A stretch of 64,000 bases of DNA from Motilibacter rhizosphaerae. GTDB taxonomy: Bacteria; Actinomycetota; Actinomycetes; Motilibacterales; Motilibacteraceae. Shown in pieces: positions 5,812 to 52,437 of the stretch. How positions within the stretch are numbered: the stretch's first letter is position 1; the number at the start of each line of letters is the position of its first letter. Position numbers and translations under genes: made by a program. Location: the NCBI RefSeq assembly GCF_004216915.1, contig NZ_SGXD01000001.1, forward strand, positions 434,001 to 498,000, given 5' to 3'. The notes below the pieces were generated by a model that had not been told where the DNA came from, did no database searches, and was given only the letters and a program-made list of their open reading frames with translations.

Positions 5812-5944
5812 GATGGCAGGGCAGGCCGCGACCACCTCCGCGCCGCGAGGTTCACCTCCCCGGCACGTCCCGCTCACTCTCGCGCCACCCGCCCGGGGCG
5901 AGCACCGGCCACCCTTGGGCCTCCGTGCAGGGACGAGGGGGGCT

Positions 5945-7933
<1,989 letters not shown>

Positions 7934-36824: not shown

Positions 36825-37631
36825 TCAGCCGAAGCGGCCGTTGACGTAGTCGAAGGTCCGCGGGTCCTCCGGCGCTTCGAAGACCTGCTGGGTGCTCCCC
36901 TGCTCCACGATGTGGCCGGGCTGCCCCTGCTCCGCGAGGAAGAACGCGCAGACGTCGGAGACGCGCGCCGCCTGCTGCATGTTGTGCGTGACGATGACGA
37001 TCGTCACCTCGCGCTTGAGCTCGTGGATCGTCTCCTCGATGCGGCGCGTCGAGGTCGGGTCGAGCGCCGAGCACGGCTCGTCCATGAGCAGCACCTTCGG
37101 CTGCACCGCGAGCGAGCGGGCGATGCAGAGCCGCTGCTGCTGGCCGCCGGAGAGACCGCCGCCGGGCTGGCGCAGGCGCGTGCGCACCTCGTTCCACAGG
37201 CCCGCCTTGCTGAGGCACGACTCGACGAGCACGTCCTTCTCGTCGCGACCGGCCTTGCGCCCGGTGAGCTTGAGCCCGGCGAGCACGTTGTCGTAGATGC
37301 TCATGGCCGGGAAGGGGTTCGGCTTCTGGAAGACCATGCCGATGTCCCTGCGCGCCTCGGTCAGCCGGCGCTGCGGGGCGTAGATGTCCTCGCCGTCCAG
37401 CAGGACCTCGCCGGCCAGTGAGGCGGAGGGCACGAGCTCGTGCATCCGGTTGAGGATGCGCAGGAACGTCGACTTGCCGCAGCCCGACGGCCCGATCAGC
37501 GCCGTCACCTGACCGGCGGGCATGACGAGGTCGACGCGGTCGAGGACCTTGTGGTCCCCGAACCACGCGGAGACGCTGCGGCCCTCCAGGCTCGCGAGCT
37601 GGACGGTCTCGGGCTCGAGCAGCGCGGTCAT
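36825..37631 (-). CDS. pstB: Phosphate ABC transporter ATP-binding protein PstB
   Basis: 268 residues, typical PstB. Walker [10 protein letters not shown] (about residues 45-53), Q-loop [12 protein letters not shown], signature [16 protein letters not shown] (about 158), Walker [17 protein letters not shown] and switch [16 protein letters not shown]. The C-terminus ends in YVNGRFG, as is usual. ATG 37631 has GGAGACAGC just before it; two upstream in-frame ATGs lack this. It should power PstC-PstA, whose genes lie 13 kb upstream on the same strand, separated by the surface-protein genes. Confidence 0.95.
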
Positions 37632-37713
37632 GCTGTCTCCTCGCTGGTGCGGCATGGCACGGTCGGACGGGTGGGGTGTCGTCATGGCGGCAGCTGCTCG
37701 GATCCCTGCTGGT

Positions 37714-38700
37714 CTAGAGGATGTTCGGGAGGAGGCGGGCCGCCTCGTGGGCGGTGGAGAGGGCGACGTACGCGAGCACCGGCACGCCGGCGAGCCACGC
37801 GTGCCAGCCGTCCCAGCGGAGGCGCAGCCAGGCGAAGCCCGCCGCGACCAGCAGGAGTGCCTGCGACCACAGCAGCAACGGCGTCAGCGCGGAGGAGTCG
37901 CGGCCGAAGGGCTTCTCGTCGTCCGGGACGTCCTCCAGCACCTTCGCGCTGCGCGGGACGGGCGTGCCCTGCAGCTGCGCGTCGACGCGCAGCACACCGC
38001 TCGGAGCCCACCAGGGGCCGTCGGTCGTCACGAGGGTCAGGCGTCCCGTGTGCGGCTGCAGCTGCGGGATCGGGTCGCCCGCACGGCGGAGGTCCTGGAC
38101 GACGTAGGTGAAGGGCTGCTGGCCCTTCGCCGGTCCCTGGCCGGTCGTGACGAGGATCGTGTCGCCCGCCTTGAGCTCGTGCAGCCGCCGGAACGGCGCG
38201 CCGTAGGCCAGTCCCCGCCCGTAGACGACGGCCGGCCCGTACTGCCCGGGCAGCGCGGTGTCCCGCTCGTGCCCCGGGCCCGAGCGCAGCACCGTCGACG
38301 ACGACCCCTCGAGCACCACCTGGCGCAGCCCGATCGTGGGGATCTGCATCACCGCGACGGGCGCGCCGAGCGGGAGCAGCTGCTTGTGCACCGTGTCCGT
38401 CTGCCCGATGGGGGCGAGCCCCTTGGCCAGCTGGACGCGGAACTGGGCGTAGGTCGTGCGCTGGTCGCGGGCCTCGCGCAGCGCCCCGACGCCGACCATC
38501 TCGAGGGCGAGGGTGCCGGCGAGCAGGGCGATGACGAGCAGCGCGGAGTGGAGGAGGTACGGCGTGCTGCCCCGGTCGAGCGGCTGCTTGGCCGGGACCA
38601 GCTGGAGGACCCGTCTCCCCGCCGGCATGCGCCGACGGGGAGACGGGGTGACGGCGCCGGCGGGGACGGCCGGGCGCTCGTCGGTGAGCGACGAGCTCAC
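37714..38700 (-). CDS. Sortase-fold membrane protein lacking the catalytic residues (pseudo-sortase)
   Basis: 328 residues. GTG 38700 overlaps the stop of the upstream Ig-protein gene (GTGA). An N-terminal membrane segment ([24 protein letters not shown], about 50), an extracellular sortase-like barrel (about 110-260) and two C-terminal membrane segments (about 280-325). Barrel landmarks are clear: [47 protein letters not shown] and [11 protein letters not shown]. The position of the catalytic His (AGHRTTYGAPF in class E) is [11 protein letters not shown], that of the Cys (LTLITC) is LTLVTT, and the Arg (RLVV) is VLRV. All three are missing, so transpeptidation is unlikely; a binding or scaffold role is more probable. 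Confidence 0.8.
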
Positions 38701-39944
38701 TTCACCGACACCGGGCGGCTGGTCGCCGTGCCAGCGGTGTACGTCGCGAGGGAGCCGGTCTCGACGACCGTCAGCTTGTGGCCCTTGTCGGCCTTGGTCA
38801 CGACGTAGGTCGCCTTGGTGGCGCCCTTGATGGCCTTGCCGTCGCGCAGCCACTGGTACTTCAGCGCCTTGGCCTTCGGCTTGAAGACTGCCGCGGTGGC
38901 GGTGAGCTTCGACCCGACCTTGCCGGCACCCGTGATCCGGGGCGCGGTCTTCACCGGCAGCAGCTGCGGGCCGACCTTGACGGCCTTGCTGGTCGAGACC
39001 GTCGAGCCGGCGGCGTTGGTCGCGGTCGCCTTGCACGCCTCGCTCTTGCCGAGCTCGGTCTTGGCGATGGTGCGCGAAGCCGAGCTGCCGGCGACGGCCT
39101 TGCCGCCCACCAGCCAGGAGTACGCCACGCTCGAGGCGCCCGTGAACGACGCGGTGCACGAGACCTTCTGGCCCACCAGGACCTTGCCCGTGATGCTCGC
39201 CGCCTTGACGACCGCGGGGGCGGGCTGCGGCTGGGCCGCCGTGGACTGCGGCGGGGCCGTCGTCACCGGGGGCGCCGGGGGCATCGTCACCGGCGCCGCG
39301 GGCGGCGTGGTGACGGGGGCAGCGGGCGGAGTCGTCACCGGCGCCGCGGGCGGCGTGGTGACCGGGACCTCGGTGGGCGTCGGCGTCGGCGTGGGGGTCG
39401 GCGTCGGGGTCGGGGTCGGCGTAGGGGTGGGAGTCGGCGTCGGCGTGCTCGTCTGGCAGCTGCCCGTCGTCGTCCAGTGGTGGGCGTCGCAGAAGTCCAC
39501 GCCGGCGGTGAAGGTCTTGTAGATCTTCGTCGTCCAGTCCACGCACTGCAGCTCGACGACGTAGTGGCCGGGCGCGATGCTCGGCAGGCCGCCGACGACG
39601 GTCGCCGCGTCGATCCAGCTCTTCGTCGCGTCGACCGTGACGGGGTGCGTCGACGACCACTGCAGGTTGTTGTTGTCGACGAAGAGGATGCCGTCGTCAG
39701 CGTTGGCCATGCCGTACCAGTAGCCGGTGTAGCTGTCCGAGCCCGCCGGGCAGGCGGTGGACGTCGTCAGCGTGGGTCGGTCGGTGTCCAGGCCCGAGGA
39801 CGGGGTGATCGTGAGGGCGGCGCCCGTGGCGGGCAGCTTCCCCTGCGCAGACGCGGGTCCGGCGGTGACCAGACCGCTCACCCCGACCACGGCAGAGGCA
39901 GCGGCCGCCAGGGCGACGAGGACGGAAGCGCGAGCTGATCGCAC
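38697..39944 (-). CDS. Surface protein: Cys-pair module, Thr/Pro linker, tandem Ig-like domains
   Basis: 415 residues from GTG 39944, with a signal peptide (VLVALAAAASAVVGVSGLV). Residues about 33-160 are the Cys-pair module (LPATGAALTITPSSG, STACPAGSDSYTGYWYG, GHYVVELQCVDW). Then a (TP)n tract and repeats of PVTTPPAA (about 165-235), and two Ig-like domains (about 240-415; SITGKVLVGQKVSCTASFTG, ITGAGKVGSKLTATAAVF, YQWLRDGKAI). These two domains match the C-terminus of the orphan PstS at 5945. There is no membrane anchor, so it is secreted or held by partners. Coupled to the pseudo-sortase gene by a 4-bp overlap. Confidence 0.75.
   Translation of the reverse strand: MRSARASVLVALAAAASAVVGVSGLVTAGPASAQGKLPATGAALTITPSSGLDTDRPTLTTSTACPAGSDSYTGYWYGMANADDGILFVDNNNLQWSSTHPVTVDATKSWIDAATVVGGLPSIAPGHYVVELQCVDWTTKIYKTFTAGVDFCDAHHWTTTGSCQTSTPTPTPTPTPTPTPTPTPTPTPTPTEVPVTTPPAAPVTTPPAAPVTTPPAAPVTMPPAPPVTTAPPQSTAAQPQPAPAVVKAASITGKVLVGQKVSCTASFTGASSVAYSWLVGGKAVAGSSASRTIAKTELGKSEACKATATNAAGSTVSTSKAVKVGPQLLPVKTAPRITGAGKVGSKLTATAAVFKPKAKALKYQWLRDGKAIKGATKATYVVTKADKGHKLTVVETGSLATYTAGTATSRPVSVK
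39365..39444 (-). repeat. Thr-Pro hexanucleotide repeat
   Basis: On the plus strand this reads as repeated GTCGGC/GTGGGG hexamers, coding (TP)n on the minus strand. It is the same kind of slip-prone linker as at 7200-7368, and 39240-39365 adds repeated PVTTPPAA units. Confidence 0.75.
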
Positions 39945-40109: not shown

Positions 40110-41189
40110 TCACACGGACGGGCGGGGCCGACGCCCGGCGAGACGTCGGGACAGCGCGAGCAGCGGTCCTCCCAGCCCGACCAGGAGCGCGACGACGACG
40201 CCGGCGACGAGGGCCGCGGTGAGACGCTGGTGGTCGCCCTTCCGCTGCGCCGCGGCGGAGACGCGCTGCTGCGGCAGCGAGCGCACGGACGGAGAGAGGA
40301 CGGTCCAGGACGTCTGGGCGCTGACCGACATCTGCTCCTTGGAGCCGGAGGGCGTGAACGTCGCGGAGATGACGTGCTCGCCGACCCCCAGCGTCCCCAC
40401 CGACATCACCGCGGTCCCGTCGGCCCCGAGGGCGCCGCGACCGAGCATGCGGTTGCCGTCGAAGAAGGTCACGAACCCTGCGGGGTGCCCGCCGGTGAGG
40501 TCGCGGACGTGCGCGGTGAACGTGAAGGGTCCTGCGCTGCCGAGCTTCTTGGGCATCGCACTGGTGAGGGTCGTGACCGTGATGGCCGTCCCCCCGGAGG
40601 TCCGGGTCACGTCTCCGGCACCAGGAGCGGCGGCGGGTGCGCCCGCCGGACCCGAGGACGTGCGCCTCACTGCCGGCCGGACGACGTGGTAGTGCTGGTG
40701 GGCATCGAACACGACCTTCGCGTCGAAGGTCCGCATCGTCTCGGTGAACTCGCCCTGGCAGACGACCCGCAGGGTGTAGGTGCCCTTCATGCGGTGGCCA
40801 CCGCCGTACATCGCGGCGACGTCGTAGAAGCTCAAGGACGCCTTGAAGGAGAACGGCTTCGTGAGCGAGATGCCGAGGTCGTTCACCGTACGGATCGGCT
40901 CGCCGTCCTTCGGGAAGCCCGGACCGAGCACCAGCGCGTAGAACGTCGCTGACCCGGCAGGGCAAGGTGCGCTCGTCCTGAACGTCGGGATGGTCGTGTC
41001 CTTGCCGGTCGCGGGCGTCACCCCGGCCGTACGCGCCGGTGCCGTCGCGGCGAGGGCCGGCAGGGCGGCACCCGCCGTCCCACCGAGGAGGGTCGCGACC
41101 GCGACCACGAGGCGGGCCAGTCCCCAGCCGGGTGCGCGGCGCACGGAAGCGCTCCGCTCGACGGGTACGGCGGCGCTCGAGCTGCTCAT
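40110..41189 (-). other. Possible internal translation start within the DUF916 fusion gene
   Basis: ATG 41189 is in frame, preceded by CCAGGAG at ideal distance, and begins a 359-residue product with its own signal-like sequence (LARLVVAVATLLGGTAGAALPALAA). This looks like a former separate gene fused to the DUF916 gene by loss of the stop, or a gene giving two products. Confidence 0.4.
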
Positions 41190-42287
41190 CACGGGCTCCT
41201 GGTCCTCGGAGGGGAGGGACGGCGCGGGGGTGGGGGCCGCAGGAGGACGTCGCCGGCGCCGCCACGCCCACCCGCCGCCGAGGACGGCGAGCAGGAGGAG
41301 GCCGAGGACGAGCCAGGGCAGCGCCCAGAACTGGACGCGGGCCTCGACGGGCCGCAGGGTCGGGTCGATGTCGCCCGCGCGCTTGGTCGGGTCGAGCCGG
41401 ACGAGCGCGGTCATGCGCAGCGCGGCACGCACGTGCGTCACGGTCGTGTGGACCGTGAGCGAGCCCTTGGGGAGCAGCTCAGGGACGGGGTGCAGGGACG
41501 CGCCGCTGACCGCGGTCCCGCCGAGCCAGCCGGTGATCCGCACGATCTGCTTCGCGCTCAGGCGCACGTTGCCCGTGTTGGTCACGGTGTAGCTCACGTC
41601 GGCCCTGCCCGCCAGCGGGTTCCACGACGCGTGGTAGCGGGCCCTGAGCCCGGTGATGGACAGCGAGGGGCGCAGCGGGCCCGTCACGCGCACGGTGAGC
41701 CGAGCGCCGACGCGCTGGTCGAGCCGGATGCGGTCCCCGTTCTTGTTGCGCGCGTACGTCGCGAGCGACGCGATGACGGCGCCGGTGTGGTCGCCCGGTG
41801 TCGCGTCGGCCGGGACCTTCAGCGTCACGGGGACGATCACGCTGCTGCGGGCCGGCACCGTCACCTCCCGCGCACCACCGAGCGAGACCCAGGACCCCAC
41901 GTCCTTGGGGCGGGAAGCCGCTGGCAGCAGGGCGAAGGACCCGTCGGTGGTGGTCTCGGCGTCGGTCGGGTATACCGCCACGACGATCGGCACGACGCTG
42001 AGGTTGATGATGGCGGCCTCGTCCTTGGCCGTCGCCCCGGGAGTCGCGGTGTAGCTGAACCCGGTACGCGGGTCCGCCTTGCCGCCCGACGCGGGCTGCA
42101 CGCCGAAGGTGACCTTGGTGCCGGCCGGCACGGGTGCGGTCGACGAGGCGCCTGCCGGCCTGGGAGCGGCGAGGGCGACCGCCGGCGGGAACGCGATCCC
42201 GGCTGCGGCGGCGGCCGTCGCAGCGAGGACAGCAGCACGACGCCTGGGGTGGCGACGGGCTGGCGGGGGCACGCGGAGCGCGATCAT
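40110..42287 (-). CDS. DUF916 (WxL-interacting protein) fused to a Cys-pair surface module
   Basis: 725 residues from ATG 42287. Part 1: signal, DUF916-like domain (about 45-190; VTFGVQPASGGKADPRTGFSY, SSVIVPVTLKVPADATPGDHTGAV), a DUF3324-like beta domain (about 195-310; RPSLSITGLRARYH, YTVTNTGNVRLS) and a membrane segment near 325 with RRRRR after it. Part 2, from an internal Met 367: a second signal-like segment, the Cys-pair module (SAPCPAGSATFYALVLGPG, RVVCQGE), an Ig-like domain and a C-terminal membrane anchor (about 690-713). No stop separates the parts, but ATG 41189 has AGGAG 7 nt before it, so part 2 may also be made alone. DUF916 proteins assist WxL proteins at the Firmicutes cell wall. 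Confidence 0.72.
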   Translation of the reverse strand: MIALRVPPPARRHPRRRAAVLAATAAAAAGIAFPPAVALAAPRPAGASSTAPVPAGTKVTFGVQPASGGKADPRTGFSYTATPGATAKDEAAIINLSVVPIVVAVYPTDAETTTDGSFALLPAASRPKDVGSWVSLGGAREVTVPARSSVIVPVTLKVPADATPGDHTGAVIASLATYARNKNGDRIRLDQRVGARLTVRVTGPLRPSLSITGLRARYHASWNPLAGRADVSYTVTNTGNVRLSAKQIVRITGWLGGTAVSGASLHPVPELLPKGSLTVHTTVTHVRAALRMTALVRLDPTKRAGDIDPTLRPVEARVQFWALPWLVLGLLLLAVLGGGWAWRRRRRPPAAPTPAPSLPSEDQEPVMSSSSAAVPVERSASVRRAPGWGLARLVVAVATLLGGTAGAALPALAATAPARTAGVTPATGKDTTIPTFRTSAPCPAGSATFYALVLGPGFPKDGEPIRTVNDLGISLTKPFSFKASLSFYDVAAMYGGGHRMKGTYTLRVVCQGEFTETMRTFDAKVVFDAHQHYHVVRPAVRRTSSGPAGAPAAAPGAGDVTRTSGGTAITVTTLTSAMPKKLGSAGPFTFTAHVRDLTGGHPAGFVTFFDGNRMLGRGALGADGTAVMSVGTLGVGEHVISATFTPSGSKEQMSVSAQTSWTVLSPSVRSLPQQRVSAAAQRKGDHQRLTAALVAGVVVALLVGLGGPLLALSRRLAGRRPRPSV

Positions 42288-42483
42288 GCGACGGGCCTTC
42301 TCTGCATGAGCGACGGTCGCTGCCCGCGCAGCATGCGCGGCAGACCCCGGAGACATCCGGCAGACCGTCGGTGGACGAGCAGAAGTCTATGCGCAGCAGG
42401 GGTTCTTGTGACCCGTACGGCGAGATGAACTGCCTGTGTACGAGGGGTTTCTGCAGCACCGCATGTTCTCCGGAAACGCCCAA

Positions 42484-42558: not shown

Positions 42559-44157
42559 TCAGCTGCCGGCGACCGTGAAGGTCACGACACCGGTGTACTT
42601 GCCGGGGTGCGTCGAGGTGGGAGCCTCGAGCGTCAGCGTGCCGTCCAGCTTGACCGTGCCCGCACCCTTGGCGGCGTGCGCGATCGGGTGGGCCTGGCCG
42701 CCGAGACCCGCGGTGCCCGTGGTGCCGGGCGCGACGGGGAGGGCGGGGACGGCGTTCGCCGAGACCGTGACGGGGTTCGACGCGTTCAGCGCGTTGCCGG
42801 CCAGGTAGGTCGGCGCCAGGTCGGTGAGGCCGACGTTCTGCCCGCTGATCGTGTCGTTCACGTCCGACCCGCCGTTGGCGAGGTCGCCGGCCTGGGCGGA
42901 CAGCGTCCAGGGGAGGTCACCCGCGCGGGTGTCGACGACCTGGATGTTCTGGAACGGCGCCGAGGCGGAGAACTTCGTGCCGTTCGGGTCGATCGCCAGC
43001 GTGCCGAGGTCCAGCGGGCTGCTGGCGGTGTACGGCGTGCTGATGACGATCGTGCCGGCCGGGATCGTGCCCGTGATGGTCTGGACGTCGGGGGTGAACT
43101 GCGCCGCGGCGACCGAGACCGGGACGACCGCGGACTGCGAGGCGACGTAGTCCGTGGGGTCGGCCGGGGTGAACTTCGCCTGCAGCGAGTGGTCACCGGC
43201 CGCGAAGGTCGGCTGGAACGTCGCCGTGCCGCCGACGACGCTCGTGCTGCCGATCTGCGTGGTGCCGTCGAACAGCTGGACGGAGCCCACAGCACCGGCC
43301 GGCGTCACCGCGGCGCTGATGGTCGTGGGCGAGCCCGCGCTGATGTTGTTCGGGACCGTCAGGGAGACCTGCGTCGCCGCAGCTGCCCCCTTGGCCACCG
43401 AGTACGCCACGACCGGGGACGTGGACGTGTTGAACGCGGTGTCGCCGGAGTAGACCGCCTTGTAGCTGTAGGCGCCCTGGCCGACCCCGTTCACCGTGAG
43501 GCTCGCGGAGCCGGCGGCGACCGCCACCGTGCCGAGGCTGGTCGAGCCGTTGAAGAACTCCACGGTGCCCGAGGGCGAGCCGCCGGAGCCCGCGACGGTC
43601 GCCGTCAGGGTGACGTTGACCGGCGCCTGCTGGCCGCTGGCCGGCGTGACCGCGAGGGCGGTGGTGCTGTCGGTCTTCGGCGCCGCCGAGACCGTCGCCT
43701 GGCCGCCGGCGATGTCGAGGCCCTGGGTGAAGGTCCCGAGGATCCCGGAGAAGTCGTCGAGGCAGGCGAACTCGAGCACGTAGTGGCCGTCGACGAGGCC
43801 GGAGGCCCCACCGAGGACCGTGGCCGTGTCGAGGTAGCTGTTGCCGGCCTTGATGGTCATCGACTTCGTGGCGGAGAAGCCGAGGTTGTTGGTGCCGAGG
43901 ATCGGGGCACCGTCGTCGGGCAGGCCGGGGCCGAAGAAGAGGCCCTCGTACTGCGAAGCGCCGGGCTGGTCGCAGCCCTTGCTGGTGACGAACGTCGGGA
44001 TGGTCGTGCCGACCGGGCCGTTGCCGCCGGTGATGGACAGCGCGGCGCCGTTGGCGGGGAGCGTGCCGAGGGCGAAGGCCGGCGTCGCGACGAGGCCGCT
44101 GGCGACGATCGCCGCGCCCCCCGTCAGGGAGGCGGCGAGCGCCTTGTTGATCTTCAC
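42559..44157 (-). CDS. Surface protein: Cys-pair module, two Ig-like domains, WxL-like C-terminus
   Basis: 532 residues; ATG 44157 has AAGGAG upstream. Signal peptide to about residue 29, Cys-pair module (about 30-150; LPANGAALSITGGNG, SKGCDQPGASQYEGLFFGPGLPDDG, EFACLDD), two bacterial Ig-like domains of the type-3/5 kind (about 160-345; SGTVEFFNGSTSLGTV, GSVQLFDGTTQIGS), and a C-terminal domain (about 355-532) matching that at 35158: ISTPYTASSPLDLGTLAIDPNGT, DTRAGDLPWTLSAQAGDL, GQNVGLTDL, HPGKYTGVVTFTV. The WTL and final strand are WxL-like. Candidate client of the DUF916 protein encoded next. Confidence 0.75.
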   Translation of the reverse strand: MKINKALAASLTGGAAIVASGLVATPAFALGTLPANGAALSITGGNGPVGTTIPTFVTSKGCDQPGASQYEGLFFGPGLPDDGAPILGTNNLGFSATKSMTIKAGNSYLDTATVLGGASGLVDGHYVLEFACLDDFSGILGTFTQGLDIAGGQATVSAAPKTDSTTALAVTPASGQQAPVNVTLTATVAGSGGSPSGTVEFFNGSTSLGTVAVAAGSASLTVNGVGQGAYSYKAVYSGDTAFNTSTSPVVAYSVAKGAAAATQVSLTVPNNISAGSPTTISAAVTPAGAVGSVQLFDGTTQIGSTSVVGGTATFQPTFAAGDHSLQAKFTPADPTDYVASQSAVVPVSVAAAQFTPDVQTITGTIPAGTIVISTPYTASSPLDLGTLAIDPNGTKFSASAPFQNIQVVDTRAGDLPWTLSAQAGDLANGGSDVNDTISGQNVGLTDLAPTYLAGNALNASNPVTVSANAVPALPVAPGTTGTAGLGGQAHPIAHAAKGAGTVKLDGTLTLEAPTSTHPGKYTGVVTFTVAGS

Positions 44158-44228: not shown

Positions 44229-45218
44229 TCAGTTGCTGCCGCAGCTGGCGGTGGGGAGGAAGCCCTGGCGACCGATCGAGGCGGTCTGCGCGCAGACCAG
44301 CGAGTTCGGGCCCTTGAAGACCTGCTGCAGCAGCGCGTCGTCGGGCGAGCTGCTGTTGAGGCGCGCGGTGGAGACCACGTTGTAGACGGTGCGGACGCCG
44401 GCGCCGGCACCGTTCGAGGCCAGTCCGGGGATGCTGTTGATCGCGCCGAGCGCCGAGACGCCGTGCACGTCGGAGATGACGCCCGCGGTCTGCGCGGCCC
44501 ACTGGGAGGACGAGTACGGCATGACCGCGAACTTGTCGGTGCCCAGGCTGGTGCCGTCGTTCTCCTGGATCTTGTCGTTGATGCAGGCGGGGAGCGCCGC
44601 GTCGGTGATGCCCATGAGGTTCTCCCAGACCGAGCGCGAGCCCGAGCCGGCCTGCGGGAGCAGCGGGTGGATCGTCGGCACCTTGCACTGGTAGATCGAC
44701 TGCAGCTGCGCCAGCGTGAACTTCTTCGACAGACCGGAGTCCGAGCGCACGGCGTACGTCAGCGTGTCGACCGCGAGCGCGAGCTTCGTCTGGTCGGCCT
44801 TGGTGCTGCCGGAGGACGAGCGGGCGAAGTCGAGGCAGCCGAAGTACGCGTTGCTCGGGTCCATGGCCTCCTCGAGGCGGTCACGGCCTGCACCCGAGCC
44901 GTCGGGGCGGATCCCGGCGCCGGCGGCGACGCCCGCGTTGCCGGCGTAGGAGCAGCCCGCGGCGCTGCCGTTGGTGTCGAAGGCACCGCCCTTGGCCGAC
45001 CAGTTGCCGATGACCGGGACGCCGCCCACCTTGACGTTGTTGGCGATGTCGGTCATCAGCTCCTCGGTGGTGTCCGAGCCGCCACCGTTGAGCGCGTACG
45101 GGTAGGCGCTCGAGGAGGTGTCGGGGTCCGCGTTCGCGACACCGGTGACCGCCATGGCGGTCGGGACGGCGACGACGCCCGCGACGAGCGCGAGCACAGT
45201 GCGCGCGACGAGCTTCAT
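44229..45218 (-). CDS. PstS-like substrate-binding protein, short form
   Basis: 329 residues; ATG 45218 with GAAAGGAC upstream. Signal peptide VLALVAGVVAVPTAMAVTGVANA. The PstS-like order of elements is seen: YALNGGGSDTTEELMTDIAN near residue 41, GIRPDGSGAGRDRLEEAM near 100, LDFARSSSGS near 130 (in the place of the Asp-containing loop), FTLAQLQSIYQCKV near 170 and PQAGSGSRSVWENLMG near 188. It is distant from the main PstS and carries several Cys. It is not tethered. Likely ligand: phosphate or another anion; not determinable here. Confidence 0.7.
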   Translation of the reverse strand: MKLVARTVLALVAGVVAVPTAMAVTGVANADPDTSSSAYPYALNGGGSDTTEELMTDIANNVKVGGVPVIGNWSAKGGAFDTNGSAAGCSYAGNAGVAAGAGIRPDGSGAGRDRLEEAMDPSNAYFGCLDFARSSSGSTKADQTKLALAVDTLTYAVRSDSGLSKKFTLAQLQSIYQCKVPTIHPLLPQAGSGSRSVWENLMGITDAALPACINDKIQENDGTSLGTDKFAVMPYSSSQWAAQTAGVISDVHGVSALGAINSIPGLASNGAGAGVRTVYNVVSTARLNSSSPDDALLQQVFKGPNSLVCAQTASIGRQGFLPTASCGSN

Positions 45219-45315: not shown

Positions 45316-48198
45316 TCACCTGCGGCGGGCGGGCACCCGGCGCAGGGCCTGGCTCGTCGTCCCCGCGAGGAGGGCGACCAGCAAGCAGATGAAGAGGGCG
45401 AACCTGATCCCGCCGACCTTGGTCGCCGGGGTCGTCGCGGAGACGAGCTGCACCTCGGGCTGCGGGGTCGCCGTTGCCGTCGGTACTGGACTTTGTAGTG
45501 AGGTGGGCTTTCCCGAGGGCGTCGGGGTCGCTCGGGAGCCGCTAACCACAGGTGAACTTCCGGTGCCGCCGGACGGGTGGAAGGGCGTCCCGGGATGCGA
45601 CGCCGGCGACGAGGGGCGGGCCGACGTCGCGAGAGTGTGGCTCGGCGACGGCGACGCAGTGGCAGAGGACGTGGGGCTCGTCGACACCGTCGGGGCGGCG
45701 GAGGGCGTGGTTGCCGAGACCGTCGTGCTGGCAGGCGGATCGGCGGTGACCGAGGGGCTCGGCTTCGCTGCGACGCCCGCCACTGCCGTACTCGCCGGGC
45801 TCGAGGAGGGCGCCGGAGTCACCGCCCTGCTCGTGCTCTGCGGGGCAGGTGTCGGCGACGCCGTACGCGTCACGGTCGAGCTCGGCGTGGGTGTCGGGGT
45901 CGAAGTCGGGTCGGGCGCCACACCCGCCTCGTCCCGGATCTCCTCGGCCGCGACGACCGCCTCGGACTTGAGCTCCTGCGTCAGCGGGAGGTACCCCTCC
46001 GGAAGCTGGCCGACGGAGGGTCCCTGCTCCTGGCCGTGGAACGCGCTGTACTGCAGCAGGTCCGCGTACGCGTCCCCCTCCTCCGGCGTGATGCGGGAGG
46101 GCACCGTCGCGACGTACTGCGGCACCGTCAAGGGGTACGCACCGGCGACCGCTGTCGAGGGGTCGGGCACGAGGACGCCGTTGTCGTCGGTGTCCATCCC
46201 GTCCACGGCCGCCTGCAGGGAATGCGCGTCGGGTGCCACGAAGTCCCCGTGGGCGTTGAGGAGCTGGGCACTGCGCAGCCCGAACCGCGCCGCGCTGACC
46301 GTGTCGGTGAGGACCAGCTCGGCCCGCCGGCCGACGAGGTCGCGCGGTGCCGACCCGAAGCCGGAGAAGAAGTCGGCCCGGAAGTTGTCGACCGGGTTGA
46401 ACGTCCCTCGCTTCGGGTCACCCTTCGCCGCCGCGATGGCCGCGGCCTCGAGGTTCGCGGCGTACTTGTTGTAGTCGATGCCGCACAGCGGCGGGACCGC
46501 GGGGCGCGTGTCCACGTCGGCGCACCACGGGTCGGGCTTCGGGAAGTCGTCCCGTGCCTGCAGCGCGTTCTTGAACGCCGGGTTCACCTTCATCCCGTGC
46601 TCGTCCGGCTGGCCCGACAGGAAGGCGCGGGCGGAGGGGTCCGCCAGGACCCACTGCCAGAGCTCGCCGTACTCGTTGGCCCGGCCGAAGGGGACGACGA
46701 GGTTCGTCAGCGAGTACTGGTGCTGGTAGTCGAGGGCGGCGAGATCGGGGTTCAGCGCCGTGAACTCGGGATCGTCGAGCAGGCCGAGCCGTGCGCCCTT
46801 GAGGTTCGGGTCGTCGTGCTGCGGGTCGTCCGCGCTCCGCACGTCGAGGCGCGACGGTGGCATGGACCCGCGGTAGGACTGGGTCAGCAGCTTCGCCACG
46901 AGGCGCGGTGTGAGCTTCAGCTGGGTGACGAGCTCCCCGTTGTGGTCCAGCTGGTCCTGCGGGGTGCCCTGCACGCCGCCGTCGGCGTCGAAGTAGAGGT
47001 CGCTGTAGTAACGGTCGATCAGGAAGACGATCGAGAGGCTCGCGACGGCCACCGGCGCGTACACCGTGTCGGACGGGGCGCCGGGCACCGAGCGCGTGAC
47101 GGCCTGCAGCCCCGGGTCCTTCGCCGAGGTGACCGAGCTCTCGCGGATGAGGTCCGCGGTGGACAGGTAGGAGTACGACCGGCCGGTGGAGGAGCAGAGG
47201 CTCGAGGTCCACGACGATGCTGCCGCCGCGAGCAGCGGGCTGCCGGTGATCGAGGTCTTCGTCGCGCTGCGGGCGCAGGACGAGGAGAGCGAGGAGAAGT
47301 CCAGCGGGATGAACATCGCGTTCTTCCACACGGACCAGGCGAACGGCGACTGGGCCCCGTCCGTGCGGCTGGTCGGCACTCCCCTGGGCACGACGGCGAT
47401 CCAGCACTTCGGCACCACGCCTGACGCCCTGGCCTGCCCGCAACCGAGGGAGCTGTTCTCCAGCCCGGTCTGCACCTCGAAGGGCATGGAGCCGGTGCCG
47501 TCGACGGCGCTCGGCGCGTAGTCGATCTCGTTGGTGATCTGCTGGTCGAACCACGGGTTGTCGACGTCGCTGTTGCCGCTGCCGTCGTACGCCGTGCCGC
47601 TGACCGGCTTGAACGGCACGAACCCGTCGTTCGCCTCCTGCGAGCCGTGGAGGTCGAGCGCCCACGCGTCGTGCTGCGCCTGCAGGGCGCGCGCGTTGGC
47701 AGCCTTGTCCTCGTCCGAGGTCGCCCCCGGCTTGAAGCCGACCAGGGTGGGCTTCACGACCTTGCGGAGGTACGCGCTCGCGGACGCGTAGTACCCGCCC
47801 GGCACGCTCGACGCGTTGCCGGCGTAGGTACTGCCGAAGGCGCCGAAGTAGCACTGGTCCCGCAAGGTGTCGCGGTCGGCGTCCGTGCTGACCTGCTGCA
47901 GCGAGGGATCGCTCCAGCACTGCATGATCTGCAGGTAGTCGGTGGGCCCGGACTGGTTCTGGGTGTCGCTCTGGCCCAGGCCCTTCCACGAGACGTCGAC
48001 GACCTGGTGCCCCAGCTGCTGCGTGCGGTCCACGCTCACGCTGAGTCCGGCGAAGGACCCGCTGCCGCGCACCGTCACCGAGGAGTCGCTCGCGCTGTCG
48101 GCCCGGGCGGTGCTGATCGTCATCCCGGGGACCGCGAGCCCGACCGCCAGCGCCGCGGCCAGGACGACGCGGGCACGGCGCAGGGCAGGGGTCCTCAC
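45316..48198 (-). CDS. 960-residue membrane-anchored binding-protein-like surface protein
   Basis: GTG 48198 overlaps the pstS stop (GTGA). Signal peptide to about residue 33, then RGSGSFAGLSVSVDRTQQLGHQVVDVSWKGLGQ, a large folded region to about 750 with scattered Cys, and elements typical of type 2 binding proteins (VVPFGRANEYGELWQWVLADPS, YPLTVPQYVATVPSRITPEEGDAYADLLQYS, EGYLPLT). Residues about 755-925 are a Thr/Ser/Pro linker. One membrane segment (FALFICLLVALLAGTTSQAL, about 930-950) and a basic tail complete it, with the linker and folded part outside. The GYLPL and VPQYVATVPS segments resemble the C-terminal part of PstS. It is far larger than any PstS I know; the function is unknown. 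Confidence 0.65.
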   Translation of the reverse strand: MRTPALRRARVVLAAALAVGLAVPGMTISTARADSASDSSVTVRGSGSFAGLSVSVDRTQQLGHQVVDVSWKGLGQSDTQNQSGPTDYLQIMQCWSDPSLQQVSTDADRDTLRDQCYFGAFGSTYAGNASSVPGGYYASASAYLRKVVKPTLVGFKPGATSDEDKAANARALQAQHDAWALDLHGSQEANDGFVPFKPVSGTAYDGSGNSDVDNPWFDQQITNEIDYAPSAVDGTGSMPFEVQTGLENSSLGCGQARASGVVPKCWIAVVPRGVPTSRTDGAQSPFAWSVWKNAMFIPLDFSSLSSSCARSATKTSITGSPLLAAAASSWTSSLCSSTGRSYSYLSTADLIRESSVTSAKDPGLQAVTRSVPGAPSDTVYAPVAVASLSIVFLIDRYYSDLYFDADGGVQGTPQDQLDHNGELVTQLKLTPRLVAKLLTQSYRGSMPPSRLDVRSADDPQHDDPNLKGARLGLLDDPEFTALNPDLAALDYQHQYSLTNLVVPFGRANEYGELWQWVLADPSARAFLSGQPDEHGMKVNPAFKNALQARDDFPKPDPWCADVDTRPAVPPLCGIDYNKYAANLEAAAIAAAKGDPKRGTFNPVDNFRADFFSGFGSAPRDLVGRRAELVLTDTVSAARFGLRSAQLLNAHGDFVAPDAHSLQAAVDGMDTDDNGVLVPDPSTAVAGAYPLTVPQYVATVPSRITPEEGDAYADLLQYSAFHGQEQGPSVGQLPEGYLPLTQELKSEAVVAAEEIRDEAGVAPDPTSTPTPTPSSTVTRTASPTPAPQSTSRAVTPAPSSSPASTAVAGVAAKPSPSVTADPPASTTVSATTPSAAPTVSTSPTSSATASPSPSHTLATSARPSSPASHPGTPFHPSGGTGSSPVVSGSRATPTPSGKPTSLQSPVPTATATPQPEVQLVSATTPATKVGGIRFALFICLLVALLAGTTSQALRRVPARRR

Positions 48199-50156
48199 GA
48201 CGACCTGCGCTTCGAGACGAGCCGCGCGACGAGCGGAGGTGCCGCGACCGTGAGCACGAGCGTCAGCGCCAGCAGGGCGATGAGGGCGTTGGTGCCGACC
48301 CCGCCGCTCAGGCTGGTCGACGTCGAGACGGGTACGGCGCCGGCGAGGACCGTGCCTCCCCCTGCCACCGTCCCGGAAGCACCGGCGACGGCTCCGGCAG
48401 CAGCGCTCGCCCCGGCGGTCCCGACCGTTCCGCCACCGGTCGCGCTGCTCCCGGTCGCTGCGCTCACCGGGACGGTCTTCACCTCACCGGTCTCGGGGTC
48501 GACCACGGTCTTGGTCGGGCTGCCCGCGGCGGCACCGCCCCCGCCGGAGCCGGAGCCGCCCCCGGTCGGGACGGTCTTCACCTCACCGGTGTTCGGGTCG
48601 ACGACGGTCGTGGTCCCCCCGGCCGCGCCCGTGGTCCCAGGCTTCGCCCCGGCGACCGTGCCGCCCGCCGCAGCACCACCGGCGCCCGCGGCCGCCCCGC
48701 CCGCAGCAGTCCCTCCACCTGGTGCGGCTCCGCCTGCCGCTGCGGGCGCCGTCGTGCCCCCAGCGGGAGCCGCGCCACCGCCACCGGAGCCGCTGTCGGC
48801 GGGCGTCACGCCGCCGGGCGCACCGTTGGGGTCCGTCGTCGCGGGCTGCTGGACCCCGCCGGCACCACCGCAGTCCGCACCCTGCTTGTCGCAGGCGTCA
48901 GGCTGCGGCGCGTTCTGCGCCAGGAGGTTCACGTCGAGGTGCTTGCCGTCGAAGGTCGGGTTGCCGCAGTTGGCGATGTCGATGCTCTGCTCGTCGACCC
49001 CCGGGATCTTCGACACCTGCTCGAGGGCGGCCTGCACGAGGTTCACCGGCAGCGGGGAGTACCCGAGCTTGTCGGCGTCCTGCTGCCCCTCGCAGAGGAA
49101 GTAGTACGCGAACGCCCCGAGCGTCTTGCCCTTGTCGTTGTTGAACTTCCCGGCCACCTGCGTCGGCACGATGAAGTAGCTGTAGCTCGACAGCGGGTAG
49201 GTCCGCGGGTCCGGGTTGGTGTAGACGTCGCTCAGGTCCTGGGTCAGGTAGTGCGCCGGGTCGTTCTGGTTCGTGTTGATCTTCGCGGCCGTCAGCGCCA
49301 CGGCGTCGTTCTGCGCCGTCGGCAGCGCGAAGTAGCCCGCCGCGTTGAGGATCTTGGCGACCGGGTAGCCGCTGAGCTTGGCGTAGGAGTACTCGTCGTA
49401 GCCGATCGTGCCGTCGTTCTCCTTGATGTACTCCGCCGACCCCGTCGAGCTGGACTGCGCGACGAAGCTCGAGTTGTCGGGGTAGGGGAAGAACGACGTG
49501 ACGCCGCAGGAGGAGCGCTTCAGGGAGCCGCAGTAGGCGTTCCACTTGCTGGAGAACTGCTGGTTGAGCCAGGACGTGATCTCGGCCGTCGTGCCGGAGC
49601 CGTCACTGCGGGCGATGGGGATGATCGAGGAGTGCGGCAGCGCGACGCCGGGGTTGCTCGCCACGATCTCGGGGTCGTCCCAGTAGTGCACGTTGTTGGT
49701 GAAGATGTCCGCGACCGCCGCCTGGGTCAGCTTCAGGTTGGTGAAGAGCTGCCCGCCGATCTCCAGGTGGTACATGAACGCCGTGCCGCCGGCGACGATC
49801 GGCATGTACGCGTACGAGCCGGCCGGCGGGGTGACCTCGTTGGGGTCGTCGAACTTGTACGGGATCTCGGAGACGGCGAAGTCCACGGTGTTGTCGTGGA
49901 AGTTCTGCCGACCGGCCGAGGAGCCGTTGTCGTTGTAGTTGATGGAGATGCCCTGCTGCCGGATGTTCGCGATCCAGTCACTCAGCGCGTTGGCCGCCCA
50001 GCTCGAGCCGGAGCCGGTGATCGAGACGTAGTCGTCCGCCATGGCGGGGCCCGCGGACAGCAGGCCGACGGGCAGCAGCGCGGCGAGCACGACGACCAGC
50101 TTCAGGACCGCGGCACGCCGCCTCCGGCCGACCGCACCGGCGAGGTTCGTCCTCAC
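48195..50156 (-). CDS. pstS: Phosphate-binding protein PstS, membrane-anchored by a long C-terminal extension
   Basis: 653 residues from GTG 50156 (AGGAG 8 nt before). Signal peptide, then a PstS domain (about 40-410): YVSITGSGSSWAANALSDW, DNGSSAGRQNF, VDFAVSEIPYKF and IARSDGSGTTAEITSWL near 185. The phosphate loop SDGSGTT is intact, but the Asp equivalent to E. coli Asp56 is Glu here (about residue 97). Residues about 430-620 are Gly/Ala-rich with two copies of TVVDPxTGEVKTVP, then a membrane segment (ALIALLALTLVLTVAAPPLVA) and a basic tail. Typical PstS proteins are lipoproteins of about 370 residues; this one is tethered from the C-terminus. Coupled to the 960-residue protein gene. Confidence 0.88.
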   Translation of the reverse strand: MRTNLAGAVGRRRRAAVLKLVVVLAALLPVGLLSAGPAMADDYVSITGSGSSWAANALSDWIANIRQQGISINYNDNGSSAGRQNFHDNTVDFAVSEIPYKFDDPNEVTPPAGSYAYMPIVAGGTAFMYHLEIGGQLFTNLKLTQAAVADIFTNNVHYWDDPEIVASNPGVALPHSSIIPIARSDGSGTTAEITSWLNQQFSSKWNAYCGSLKRSSCGVTSFFPYPDNSSFVAQSSSTGSAEYIKENDGTIGYDEYSYAKLSGYPVAKILNAAGYFALPTAQNDAVALTAAKINTNQNDPAHYLTQDLSDVYTNPDPRTYPLSSYSYFIVPTQVAGKFNNDKGKTLGAFAYYFLCEGQQDADKLGYSPLPVNLVQAALEQVSKIPGVDEQSIDIANCGNPTFDGKHLDVNLLAQNAPQPDACDKQGADCGGAGGVQQPATTDPNGAPGGVTPADSGSGGGGAAPAGGTTAPAAAGGAAPGGGTAAGGAAAGAGGAAAGGTVAGAKPGTTGAAGGTTTVVDPNTGEVKTVPTGGGSGSGGGGAAAGSPTKTVVDPETGEVKTVPVSAATGSSATGGGTVGTAGASAAAGAVAGASGTVAGGGTVLAGAVPVSTSTSLSGGVGTNALIALLALTLVLTVAAPPLVARLVSKRRSS

Positions 50157-50167
50157 GTCAACAGCTC

Positions 50168-51403
50168 CTAGTGCTTCTCGAAGACGACGGACAGACCAGC
50201 GTCGCCGTCAGTGGGGGTGTGACCCTCCGCGCGGAGGGTGAGCAGGGTGGTGATCCGCCGGTCGTCGCGCACCGAGCGGGTCGCGGCGCGGCGCCGCTGC
50301 CGGACGCTCTGGTGGCCCGGGCCGCGACCACCGAGCAGGCGGGCGATGACGAAGAGCACGAGGACGAGCGCGAGCAGGACCGCCGCGGCACCGAACGCCC
50401 GGGCGACCATGTTCGGGTCCGGCGAGTGCGCCATCTTGAAGACGAACAGCGGCAGTGAGACCTGCGGCTCCTGCAGCGGGTCCCAGTTGTAGGCGGTCGT
50501 GAAGCCCGCCGTGATGAGCACCGGCGACGTCTCCCCGATGCCGCGGGCCATGCCGAGGATCACGGCGGTGGCGAGACCGGAGCGCGCGGTGGGCAGCACG
50601 ACGTACCGGACTGCCTGCCACTGCGGCGCTCCGAGCGCGTACGCCGCCTCGAGCAGTGTGCTCGGGACCAGGCGGAGCACGACCACGGCGGTGCGGATGA
50701 TGATGGGCAGCATCTCGACCGACAGCGCCAGAGCTGCGGCGTGGCCGGAGAAGCGCAGTCCGAACGCCAGGATGTACGCCGCGTAGACGAAGAGCCCGGC
50801 CACGATCGACGGGAGCGCGGTCATGGCCTCGGTCAGCGTGCGGAGGAACATGCTGAGCTTGGTCCGGGTCTGCGTGATGTAGACCGCGGCGCTGATCCCG
50901 AGCGGGACCGTGAGCACGAGGGCGATGCTGATCTGCTCGGCGGTGCCGACGATCGCGTGGCCGATGCCCCCGCTGGTGAGCGGCGACAGGGGTGGCGTCG
51001 TCGTCATGTCCTGCGTGAAGAAGTTCCTGTGCATCAGGGCGGAGTGGCCCTGCCACCCGATGTAGACGAGGATCCCCACGAGGGCGCTGAGCACGACCAG
51101 CGCTGCTGTGTGCGCGAGCGCGGCGACGAGCCTGTCCTTGACGACGAGCGGGCCCTCGTCCAGCGAGACCAGCGTCCCGTAGAGCACGAGGAACAGCGCG
51201 TACGCCGTGGCGAGGAAGCCGATGGTGCCGCTGTACGGCCCGAGGTCGAACAGCAGCGCGGTGAGGCACGTCGCCGAGATCGCCGCACCGATGACGGCCA
51301 GCACGTCGGTCGAGCGGACGCTCCGGAGGTCGCGGCGCTCCTCGACGAGCAGGCGCGGCTCCTCGCGGACCTCGGGAGCGCGGGAGAGGGTCGGCGTGCT
51401 CAC
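50168..51403 (-). CDS. pstA: Phosphate ABC transporter permease PstA
   Basis: 411 residues, somewhat long for PstA because of a 35-residue N-terminus and a basic C-terminal tail (VRQRRRAATRSVRDDRRITT). About eight membrane segments. The permease loop is visible as VPSTLLEAAYALGAPQWQAVRYVVLP (about 265) and the ligand-path segment as GIGETSPVLITAGF. GTG 51403 overlaps the pstC stop (GTGA). The pstS gene follows after 11 nt. Confidence 0.93.
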   Translation of the reverse strand: MSTPTLSRAPEVREEPRLLVEERRDLRSVRSTDVLAVIGAAISATCLTALLFDLGPYSGTIGFLATAYALFLVLYGTLVSLDEGPLVVKDRLVAALAHTAALVVLSALVGILVYIGWQGHSALMHRNFFTQDMTTTPPLSPLTSGGIGHAIVGTAEQISIALVLTVPLGISAAVYITQTRTKLSMFLRTLTEAMTALPSIVAGLFVYAAYILAFGLRFSGHAAALALSVEMLPIIIRTAVVVLRLVPSTLLEAAYALGAPQWQAVRYVVLPTARSGLATAVILGMARGIGETSPVLITAGFTTAYNWDPLQEPQVSLPLFVFKMAHSPDPNMVARAFGAAAVLLALVLVLFVIARLLGGRGPGHQSVRQRRRAATRSVRDDRRITTLLTLRAEGHTPTDGDAGLSVVFEKH

Positions 51404-52437
51404 AGGTCCGCCGCCCCGGAGCGCGAGCGGGACACGATGACCGCAGCGAGCGAGTTCACGGCCAGCGTGACGAAGAAGAGCGTGAGCCCGGCCGCCATGA
51501 GCGCGGAGAGCGCGAGACCGTTGGCATCACCGAAGCGCAGCGCGATCAGCGACGAGATCGAGATGGCGCCCTTCTGCAGGATGTGCGGCTGGATGACGAA
51601 GACCGGCGACACGATCATGTAGACCGCGACGGTCTCCCCGAGCGCGCGGCCGAGGCCGAGCATCGTCCCGCCGATGATGCCGCCGAGGCCGTACGGCAGC
51701 ACGACCGAGCGGATCATCCCCCAGCGCGTGGCCCCCAGCGCGTACGCGCCCTCGCGCTCTCCCAGCGGGGCCTGCTGGAAGACCTCGCGCATGATCGAGC
51801 TCATGATCGGCGTGAGCATGAAGCCGACGACGAGGCCGGCGTTGAAGGACGACGCGGTGTAGACCGTCCCGGTGGCCAGCGGGTTGCGCGGGTCGGCGCC
51901 GCTCACGTGGAAGAAGGGGAAGAAGCCGAAGTACGTCGCCAGCCACCGCGGCAGGCCGTCGCCCTGCGGCCCGTTGACCAGGATGTCCGGCTGCAGGAAG
52001 AACGCGCCGAAGATGCCGTAGACCACGCTGGGGATCGCGGCCATGAGGTCGACGAGGCTCACCAGCAGGCGGCGCAGGCCGCGCGGGGAGTACTCCGAGA
52101 TGTAGAGCGCCGTGCCGAGCGAGAGCGGCAGGGCCACCACGATCGCGACGACCGCGATGATGAAGGTCCCGACGAGGATCGCGAGGACGCCGAACCTGCC
52201 GCCCTGCTCGGTGTGCCAGGACTGGGTGGTGAAGAAGGAGAACCCGGCCTTGCGCAGGGCCTCGCCTGCCCGCAGTGACAGGAAGGAGCCGATGAGCACC
52301 ATGACGACGAGGACGACGAGGCCCGCGCCGAGCACGTAGCTGCGGAACGTCCGGTCAGCCGCCGTGGGCCGGTCGCGGAGCGTACGCCGCTGCTCGTCCG
52401 TGGACCCGGACGGGGGAACGGCGACCAGGGCGCTCAA
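51400..52437 (-). CDS. pstC: Phosphate ABC transporter permease PstC
   Basis: 345 residues, six or more membrane segments (SYVLGAGLVVLVVMVLIGSF first). Family marks: SLVDLMAAIPSVVYGIFGAFFL (about 130), APLGEREGAYALGATRWGMIRSVVLP (EAA-type loop, about 225) and GRALGETVAVYMIVS. TTG 52437 is the best start; AGGGA lies about 8 nt before. It is the first gene of the phosphate operon. I found no confident PHO box in its leader. Confidence 0.93.
   Translation of the reverse strand: MSALVAVPPSGSTDEQRRTLRDRPTAADRTFRSYVLGAGLVVLVVMVLIGSFLSLRAGEALRKAGFSFFTTQSWHTEQGGRFGVLAILVGTFIIAVVAIVVALPLSLGTALYISEYSPRGLRRLLVSLVDLMAAIPSVVYGIFGAFFLQPDILVNGPQGDGLPRWLATYFGFFPFFHVSGADPRNPLATGTVYTASSFNAGLVVGFMLTPIMSSIMREVFQQAPLGEREGAYALGATRWGMIRSVVLPYGLGGIIGGTMLGLGRALGETVAVYMIVSPVFVIQPHILQKGAISISSLIALRFGDANGLALSALMAAGLTLFFVTLAVNSLAAVIVSRSRSGAADL

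Follow-up and report, generated by a model that had tools for sequence, protein, structure and literature searches.

A class E-like sortase has probably become a fixed, non-cutting subunit of a second Pst-type importer with surface extensions, in which it would act as a docking partner (probability of about 0.55). The protein, referred to here as the pseudosortase, is encoded on the reverse strand at positions 37714..38700 of the window (the whole 64,000-nucleotide stretch of DNA that was analyzed), with a GTG start codon and a length of 328 amino acids. To judge from its aligned sequences, the family to which it belongs is almost certainly non-catalytic, and the pseudosortase very likely belongs to the machine of a Pst-type operon.

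Fold and membrane topology

The Pfam sortase profile PF04203 scored 56.4 bits against the window pseudosortase (cut-off, 26.6; E value, 3e-15) and was matched by 77 of the 77 members of the family alignment at E <= 1e-5, whereas the class E sortase model NF033747 scored 57.8 bits, far below its cut-off of 160. The fold is recognized, yet by this score the protein stands far apart from the class E sortases. A sequencing or frame artefact was rejected, given that the reading frame is open and full-length relatives are present in many genomes. The start codon of the gene overlaps the TGA stop codon of the upstream Ig gene in the sequence GTGA (38697..38700, reverse strand), as read in the DNA.

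We obtained a structure model of the pseudosortase from 77 sequences (mean pLDDT, 89.4; pTM, 0.83). A disordered cytoplasmic N-terminus precedes one long helix (residues 45-92), which would serve as a transmembrane segment plus stalk, and this helix is followed by the sortase barrel (residues ~114-244) and by two predicted C-terminal helices (residues 269-295 and 298-322). The hydrophobicity of the latter suggests that they lie in the membrane, and the protein has a conserved end, LLPN(L/I)L. The model matched solved sortases with Z scores of 14-19, including the class D sortase 4d70 (Z of 18.6, 2.6 Å over 152 residues), sortase E 5go6 (Z of 15.3, 2.0 Å over 125 residues), sortase E of S. avermitilis (Z of 15.2-15.3 at 2.0-2.2 Å), and class C sortases (Z of 14-18). 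A structural search for viral proteins returned no match at E <= 0.001. The original prediction had described a membrane-embedded sortase-fold protein and proposed superposition on sortase E as a check; the superposition recovered the sortase barrel at a Z of ~15, the fold is borne out by this match together with the PF04203 score, and the membrane embedding is supported as a prediction by the N-terminal and C-terminal helices.

Active site and family of the pseudosortase

Alignment to intact class E sortases, together with the DNA sequence, placed R162 (codon 38215..38217), T226 (38023..38025), and V236 (37993..37995; all on the reverse strand) at the positions of the catalytic His, Cys, and Arg, respectively, which confirms the loss of these three residues as originally proposed. 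We examined the same positions in a family alignment of 81 members, comprising the window protein and the best 80 of 317 relatives; the 317 came from scanning one genome per species with an alignment and may include canonical sortases. Among these 81 members, the His site is occupied by R in 77, H in three, and K in one; the Cys site by A in 70, G in six, T in four, and S in one, but never by Cys; and the Arg site by V in 52, L in 12, A in seven, T in five, and I in five, but never by Arg. The substitutions are thus kept across the family, an intact triad being found in none of its members, and as read from the alignment the pattern is more than chance. Given that the triad is absent throughout the 81 members, it was lost long ago and has not been regained. 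The only pseudosortases with His at the catalytic position are three Dactylosporangium proteins (L080, L087, and L118), which lack the Cys and the Arg. Reconstruction of the active site around a Cys located elsewhere in the barrel was excluded because the barrel contains no Cys in any of the 81 members (best 80 of 317 relatives plus the window protein), 40 of which lack Cys altogether; a His-Cys pair supplied from elsewhere, which the original prediction had named as a possible refutation, was therefore not found in a model that has the sortase fold.

As judged from the alignment, the loss exceeds the triad: the tyrosine of class E sortases is missing as well, and the β6/β7 loop region is shorter by about 10 residues. 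The triad of Streptomyces coelicolor SrtE1 consists of His251, Cys320, and Arg329, and its Tyr229, in the β3/β4 loop, has been proposed to recognize the Ala of LAXTG (PMC5148588). Alignment of the genome's own SrtE with SrtE1 identified Tyr229 as the Tyr of GHY, the counterpart of position 145 in the window protein. Of 17 canonical sortases, 15 have Tyr here; the pseudosortases have Arg in 70 of 81 (best 80 of 317 plus the window protein) and never Tyr, and the window protein has Glu (E145, codon 38266..38268, reverse strand). The stretch of residues 201-220, which holds the β6/β7 loop, comprises 20 residues in 70 of the same 81 sequences versus ~30 residues in the SrtE of this genome, as counted in the alignment.

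Other residues have become conserved in the family and differ from those of canonical sortases: R145, R146, D147, R162, GQG at 187-189, R205, R206, R220, and D240, with G228 and P233 also among the newly conserved residues. Positions 145, 146, 162, 205, 206, and 220 are Arg or Lys in >80% of the 81 pseudosortases (best 80 of 317 plus the window protein), with R220 not being exclusive to them in that it is also found in three of the 17 canonical sortases. Conserved Ser/Thr columns are present at 133, 148, 186, and 225, the last of which is Thr or Ser in canonical sortases too. Sortase topology suggests that several of the newly conserved residues lie on the old substrate side.

The pseudosortases form one fully supported clade under purifying selection, apart from the genome's working class E sortase. 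In a search of 60 related genomes, full-length relatives stood clearly apart from the matches to canonical sortases, which were shorter. In a tree built from 135 columns, with a few catalytic columns kept in, a branch with 100/100 support separates 46 pseudosortases from 17 canonical sortases, and dN/dS was 0.07-0.43 in 25 close pairs of pseudosortases. Hosts among the best 80 of 317 relatives include Micromonosporaceae, Pseudonocardiaceae, Streptomycetaceae, Cellulomonadaceae, Microbacteriaceae, Bifidobacteriaceae, Jiangellaceae, Ilumatobacteraceae, and others. The distribution is patchy: the gene was found in 31 of 247 sampled genomes of its class and in 10 of 296 genomes of an even draw across the phylum, family members being present in other classes too, and it is absent from one genus mate. 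A plasmid-borne origin was rejected, a comparison with a plasmid collection having given no match.

The second pst operon and its surface proteins

The pseudosortase operon is a second, divergent pst operon, with a canonical pst operon that has its own pstB being present elsewhere in the same genome. In the window the genes run in the order pstC, pstA, PstS1, PstS-long, PstS3, WxL/Ig, WxLIP/Ig, Ig, pseudosortase, and pstB, all on the reverse strand. The permeases PstC (51400..52437; TIGR02138, 254.3 bits) and PstA (50168..51403; TIGR00974, 204.6 bits) scored above their cut-offs of 196.45 and 193.45, respectively. PstS1 (48195..50156) has an intact RSDGSGTT motif, a C-terminal transmembrane segment, and a basic tail; PstB (36825..37685), encoded directly downstream of the pseudosortase, has the ABC motifs. 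From these sequence features the second Pst transporter looks intact. Membership of the Pst family suggests phosphate as the solute, with PstS1 (TIGR00975, 195.7 bits; cut-off, 205) and PstB (TIGR00972, 338.1 bits; cut-off, 343.2) falling just under their curated cut-offs. Pho-box-like direct repeats (GTTCA N6 GTTCA) numbered 14 in the window versus 14.3 expected, and none lies upstream of pstC.

Among the best 80 of 317 relatives, 60 have at least 8 kb of sequence on both sides. Both pstB and the gene for PstS-long are present in 60 of these 60 loci and pstS is present in 55, whereas a WxLIP-like protein is encoded in 46, PstS3 in 46, and a WxL-like protein in 40. The surface genes thus vary between loci, and there is therefore no constant docked partner besides PstS-long. 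The original prediction had read the context as pairing with a surface protein; the translational coupling is real, as the shared GTGA attests, but membership in the second pst operon had been missed, and the Ig protein does not stand as the special partner, given that only PstS-long matches the transporter in strictness of presence.

PstS-long (45316..48198, reverse strand; 960 amino acids) adopts a PstS fold at residues 310-760, with a Z of 30 to M. tuberculosis PstS-1, and has in addition an extra N-terminal domain, a linker rich in Pro, Ser, and Thr, a C-terminal transmembrane segment, and a basic tail. The phosphate-binding motif RxDxSGT is absent from 72 of 72 copies of PstS-long and also from the short PstS-type protein PstS3 (44229..45218, reverse strand). 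The further domain before the PstS fold (residues 40-300) has invariant Cys residues at 94, 116, 253, and 265. The C-terminus of both PstS-long and PstS1 consists of a membrane segment and a basic tail, mostly without a sorting motif. Of the 247 genomes, 33 hold PstS-long and 31 the pseudosortase. Each of the 31 also holds PstS-long, and 31 of the 33 PstS-long genomes hold a pseudosortase; in both exceptions the contig breaks off at this point, and in one of them a truncated pseudosortase is present. In several lineages the start of the pseudosortase gene overlaps the stop codon of the PstS-long gene.

Three surface protein genes lie between PstS3 and the pseudosortase on the reverse strand. 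The first encodes an Ig (Big_3_5) protein that matches WxL weakly (42559..44157; PF13731, 16.8 bits; cut-off, 25), the second a WxLIP-like protein with Big_3_5 Ig and a C-terminal transmembrane segment in one frame (40110..42356; PF06030, 26.8 bits; cut-off, 27.3), and the third a secreted Ig/PKD-like protein (38697..39944), coupled to the pseudosortase, that has neither a C-terminal transmembrane segment nor a sorting signal. The curated cut-off is reached by neither the WxL nor the WxLIP domain. The frame at 40110-42356 contains an internal second signal-like segment, and its relatives usually have two overlapping genes. Elsewhere in the window, an orphan PstS-type protein (5813-7933, forward strand; 173 bits to TIGR00975; PBP_like_2) carries terminal Ig-like repeats similar to the C-terminal part of the Ig protein encoded at 38697-39944; these repeats link the Ig module directly to PstS proteins. 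Downstream of pstB, from 35158 to ~36800 on the reverse strand, is a gene for a secreted protein with a WxL-like motif and no Pfam match, which contains an exact tandem duplication, AYAVHLFGASLPQDGAVLVPATPLPAATG occurring twice.

None of six window proteins tested has an LPxTG-like sorting signal. Of the 64 assessable genes directly upstream of a pseudosortase in other loci, 27 encode a LAxTG/LPxTG-type signal, 19 a motif-less membrane tail, and 18 neither; the original statement that the neighbors lack an LPxTG-like signal thus holds for the window proteins but not for the family. The one other sortase gene of the genome encodes an intact class E sortase (SrtE) with GHR, TLTTC, and RLIV motifs, and 30 of the 31 pseudosortase genomes have at least one further sortase-domain match. 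In the remaining genome (G248, 95% complete), the pseudosortase is the only sortase-domain match at E <= 1e-5.

Possible roles and related systems

The pseudosortase is most likely a non-catalytic subunit of a Pst-type importer or surface complex, where it would dock a partner or bind a ligand. In the mechanism that we favor, a class E-like sortase would have lost catalysis together with the LAXTG-reading tyrosine, and the derived protein would have two membrane helices at its C-terminus and, around the former substrate side, a set of conserved arginines. It would sit in the membrane beside PstC and PstA, and its extracytoplasmic barrel would bind a partner that is either close to the membrane or anchored to the wall and would leave it uncut. 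The likeliest partners are PstS-long and/or the product of the gene immediately upstream, which is of Ig, WxL, or LAxTG type. Such docking would keep PstS1, as the phosphate-binding protein, and the proteins bound to the wall in place beside the transporter. The contact with the transporter and the groove as binding site are both presumed, a shared operon and co-occurrence being no proof of contact. Docking is the best fit because of the strict pairing, the membrane topology, and the loss of cutting, and on these grounds the docking or assembly part of the docking or chaperone role that was originally proposed is probably correct.

An unlikely alternative is that the pseudosortase regulates the working sortase or acts as its decoy, binding LAxTG-type precursors encoded in the operon and delaying them or passing them to SrtE. 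The signals on 27 of 64 upstream genes, the other sortase match in 30 of 31 genomes, and the intact SrtE of the window's genome are in keeping with such a role, which is made less likely by the loss of the LAXTG-reading tyrosine, where 70 of 81 members (best 80 of 317 plus the window protein) have Arg, and of the loop, its region being ~10 residues shorter. Moreover, 37 of the 64 upstream genes lack such a signal, as does that of the window, genome G248 has no other sortase match, and the strict association with PstS-long and PstB would be left unexplained. We also consider it rather doubtful that the pseudosortase is an anion-binding or sensing subunit whose putative arginine-rich groove has phosphate, an anionic polymer of the wall, or a lipid-linked precursor as its ligand and signals to or feeds the importer. 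Six positions that are Arg or Lys in >80% of members, atypical of canonical sortases, in an operon for a phosphate-type importer would suit this role, but R220 also occurs in three of 17 canonical sortases, position 145 is Glu in the window protein, and the conserved arginines could equally form salt bridges or hold acidic protein partners.

That the protein is still an enzyme of different chemistry, with a new active site built in the same groove from other residues, seems quite improbable. The strong conservation of altered residues (R162, D240, R205, and TGQG) and the clear purifying selection are reminiscent of an active site, yet the old site has no conserved nucleophile, with the Cys position being mostly Ala and the barrel free of Cys, and the only conserved Ser/Thr columns are 133, 148, 186, and 225, the last shared with canonical sortases. 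Loss of key residues, the patchy distribution (31 of 247 genomes in the class), and absence from a genus mate might be expected of a decaying, functionless duplicate of SrtE, but such decay is ruled out by purifying selection (dN/dS of 0.07-0.43) and conservation, the gene forming a deep single clade with intact frames and a constant operon.

In class C sortases, the pilin polymerases, a C-terminal membrane segment follows the barrel. The pseudosortase resembles them in this predicted feature and in structure (Z of 14-18), but it lacks the catalytic residues and has two C-terminal helices rather than one as well as constant pst-type neighbors. With class E sortases (Streptomyces SrtE1, 5cuw; S. 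avermitilis SrtE, 5go5) it shares the barrel (Z of ~15, 2.0-2.2 Å), a sequence identity of up to 39% across the aligned barrel, an N-terminal membrane anchor, and the landmarks GPGH...LPGQ.G and G.PF. It differs from them in lacking His, Cys, Arg, and the LAXTG-reading tyrosine (SrtE1 Tyr229; PMC5148588), in its β6/β7 stretch of 20 versus ~30 residues, in its two extra C-terminal helices, and in its fixed pst-type operon. The operon itself is similar to that of a PstSCAB importer, with PstC and PstA above curated cut-offs, RSDGSGTT in PstS1, and ABC motifs in PstB, whereas it is a divergent second copy beside the canonical operon and adds the pseudosortase, two motif-less PstS-type proteins, and WxL/Ig surface proteins. 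WxL-like and WxLIP-like proteins are also encoded together in WxL/WxLIP clusters, which, according to the available text of two reports (PMC10599100, PMC9772566), often include LPxTG-type proteins; that text mentions neither a sortase gene nor phosphate transport. Unlike those clusters, the window genes belong to a pst-type operon that also includes a pseudosortase, and their domain matches are below cut-off. A literature search, the coverage of which was incomplete, did not find a natural inactive sortase family, a link between a sortase and pst genes, or an operon of this kind.

More tentatively, the operon may represent an undescribed kind of importer found across the phylum, in which a sortase and a phosphate-binding protein have both become structural or sensing subunits that no longer catalyze or bind phosphate, thereby extending the reach of an ABC transporter across the cell wall, and in which the dead groove serves as an anion- or protein-binding site. 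The tie between pseudosortase and pst genes in many actinobacteria points to an undescribed multi-protein surface machine. Genes called sortase from a domain match alone should not be counted as wall-anchoring enzymes. A conserved branch of apparently dead sortases would be a new use of the fold, with an enzyme fold being reusable as a structural or binding part.
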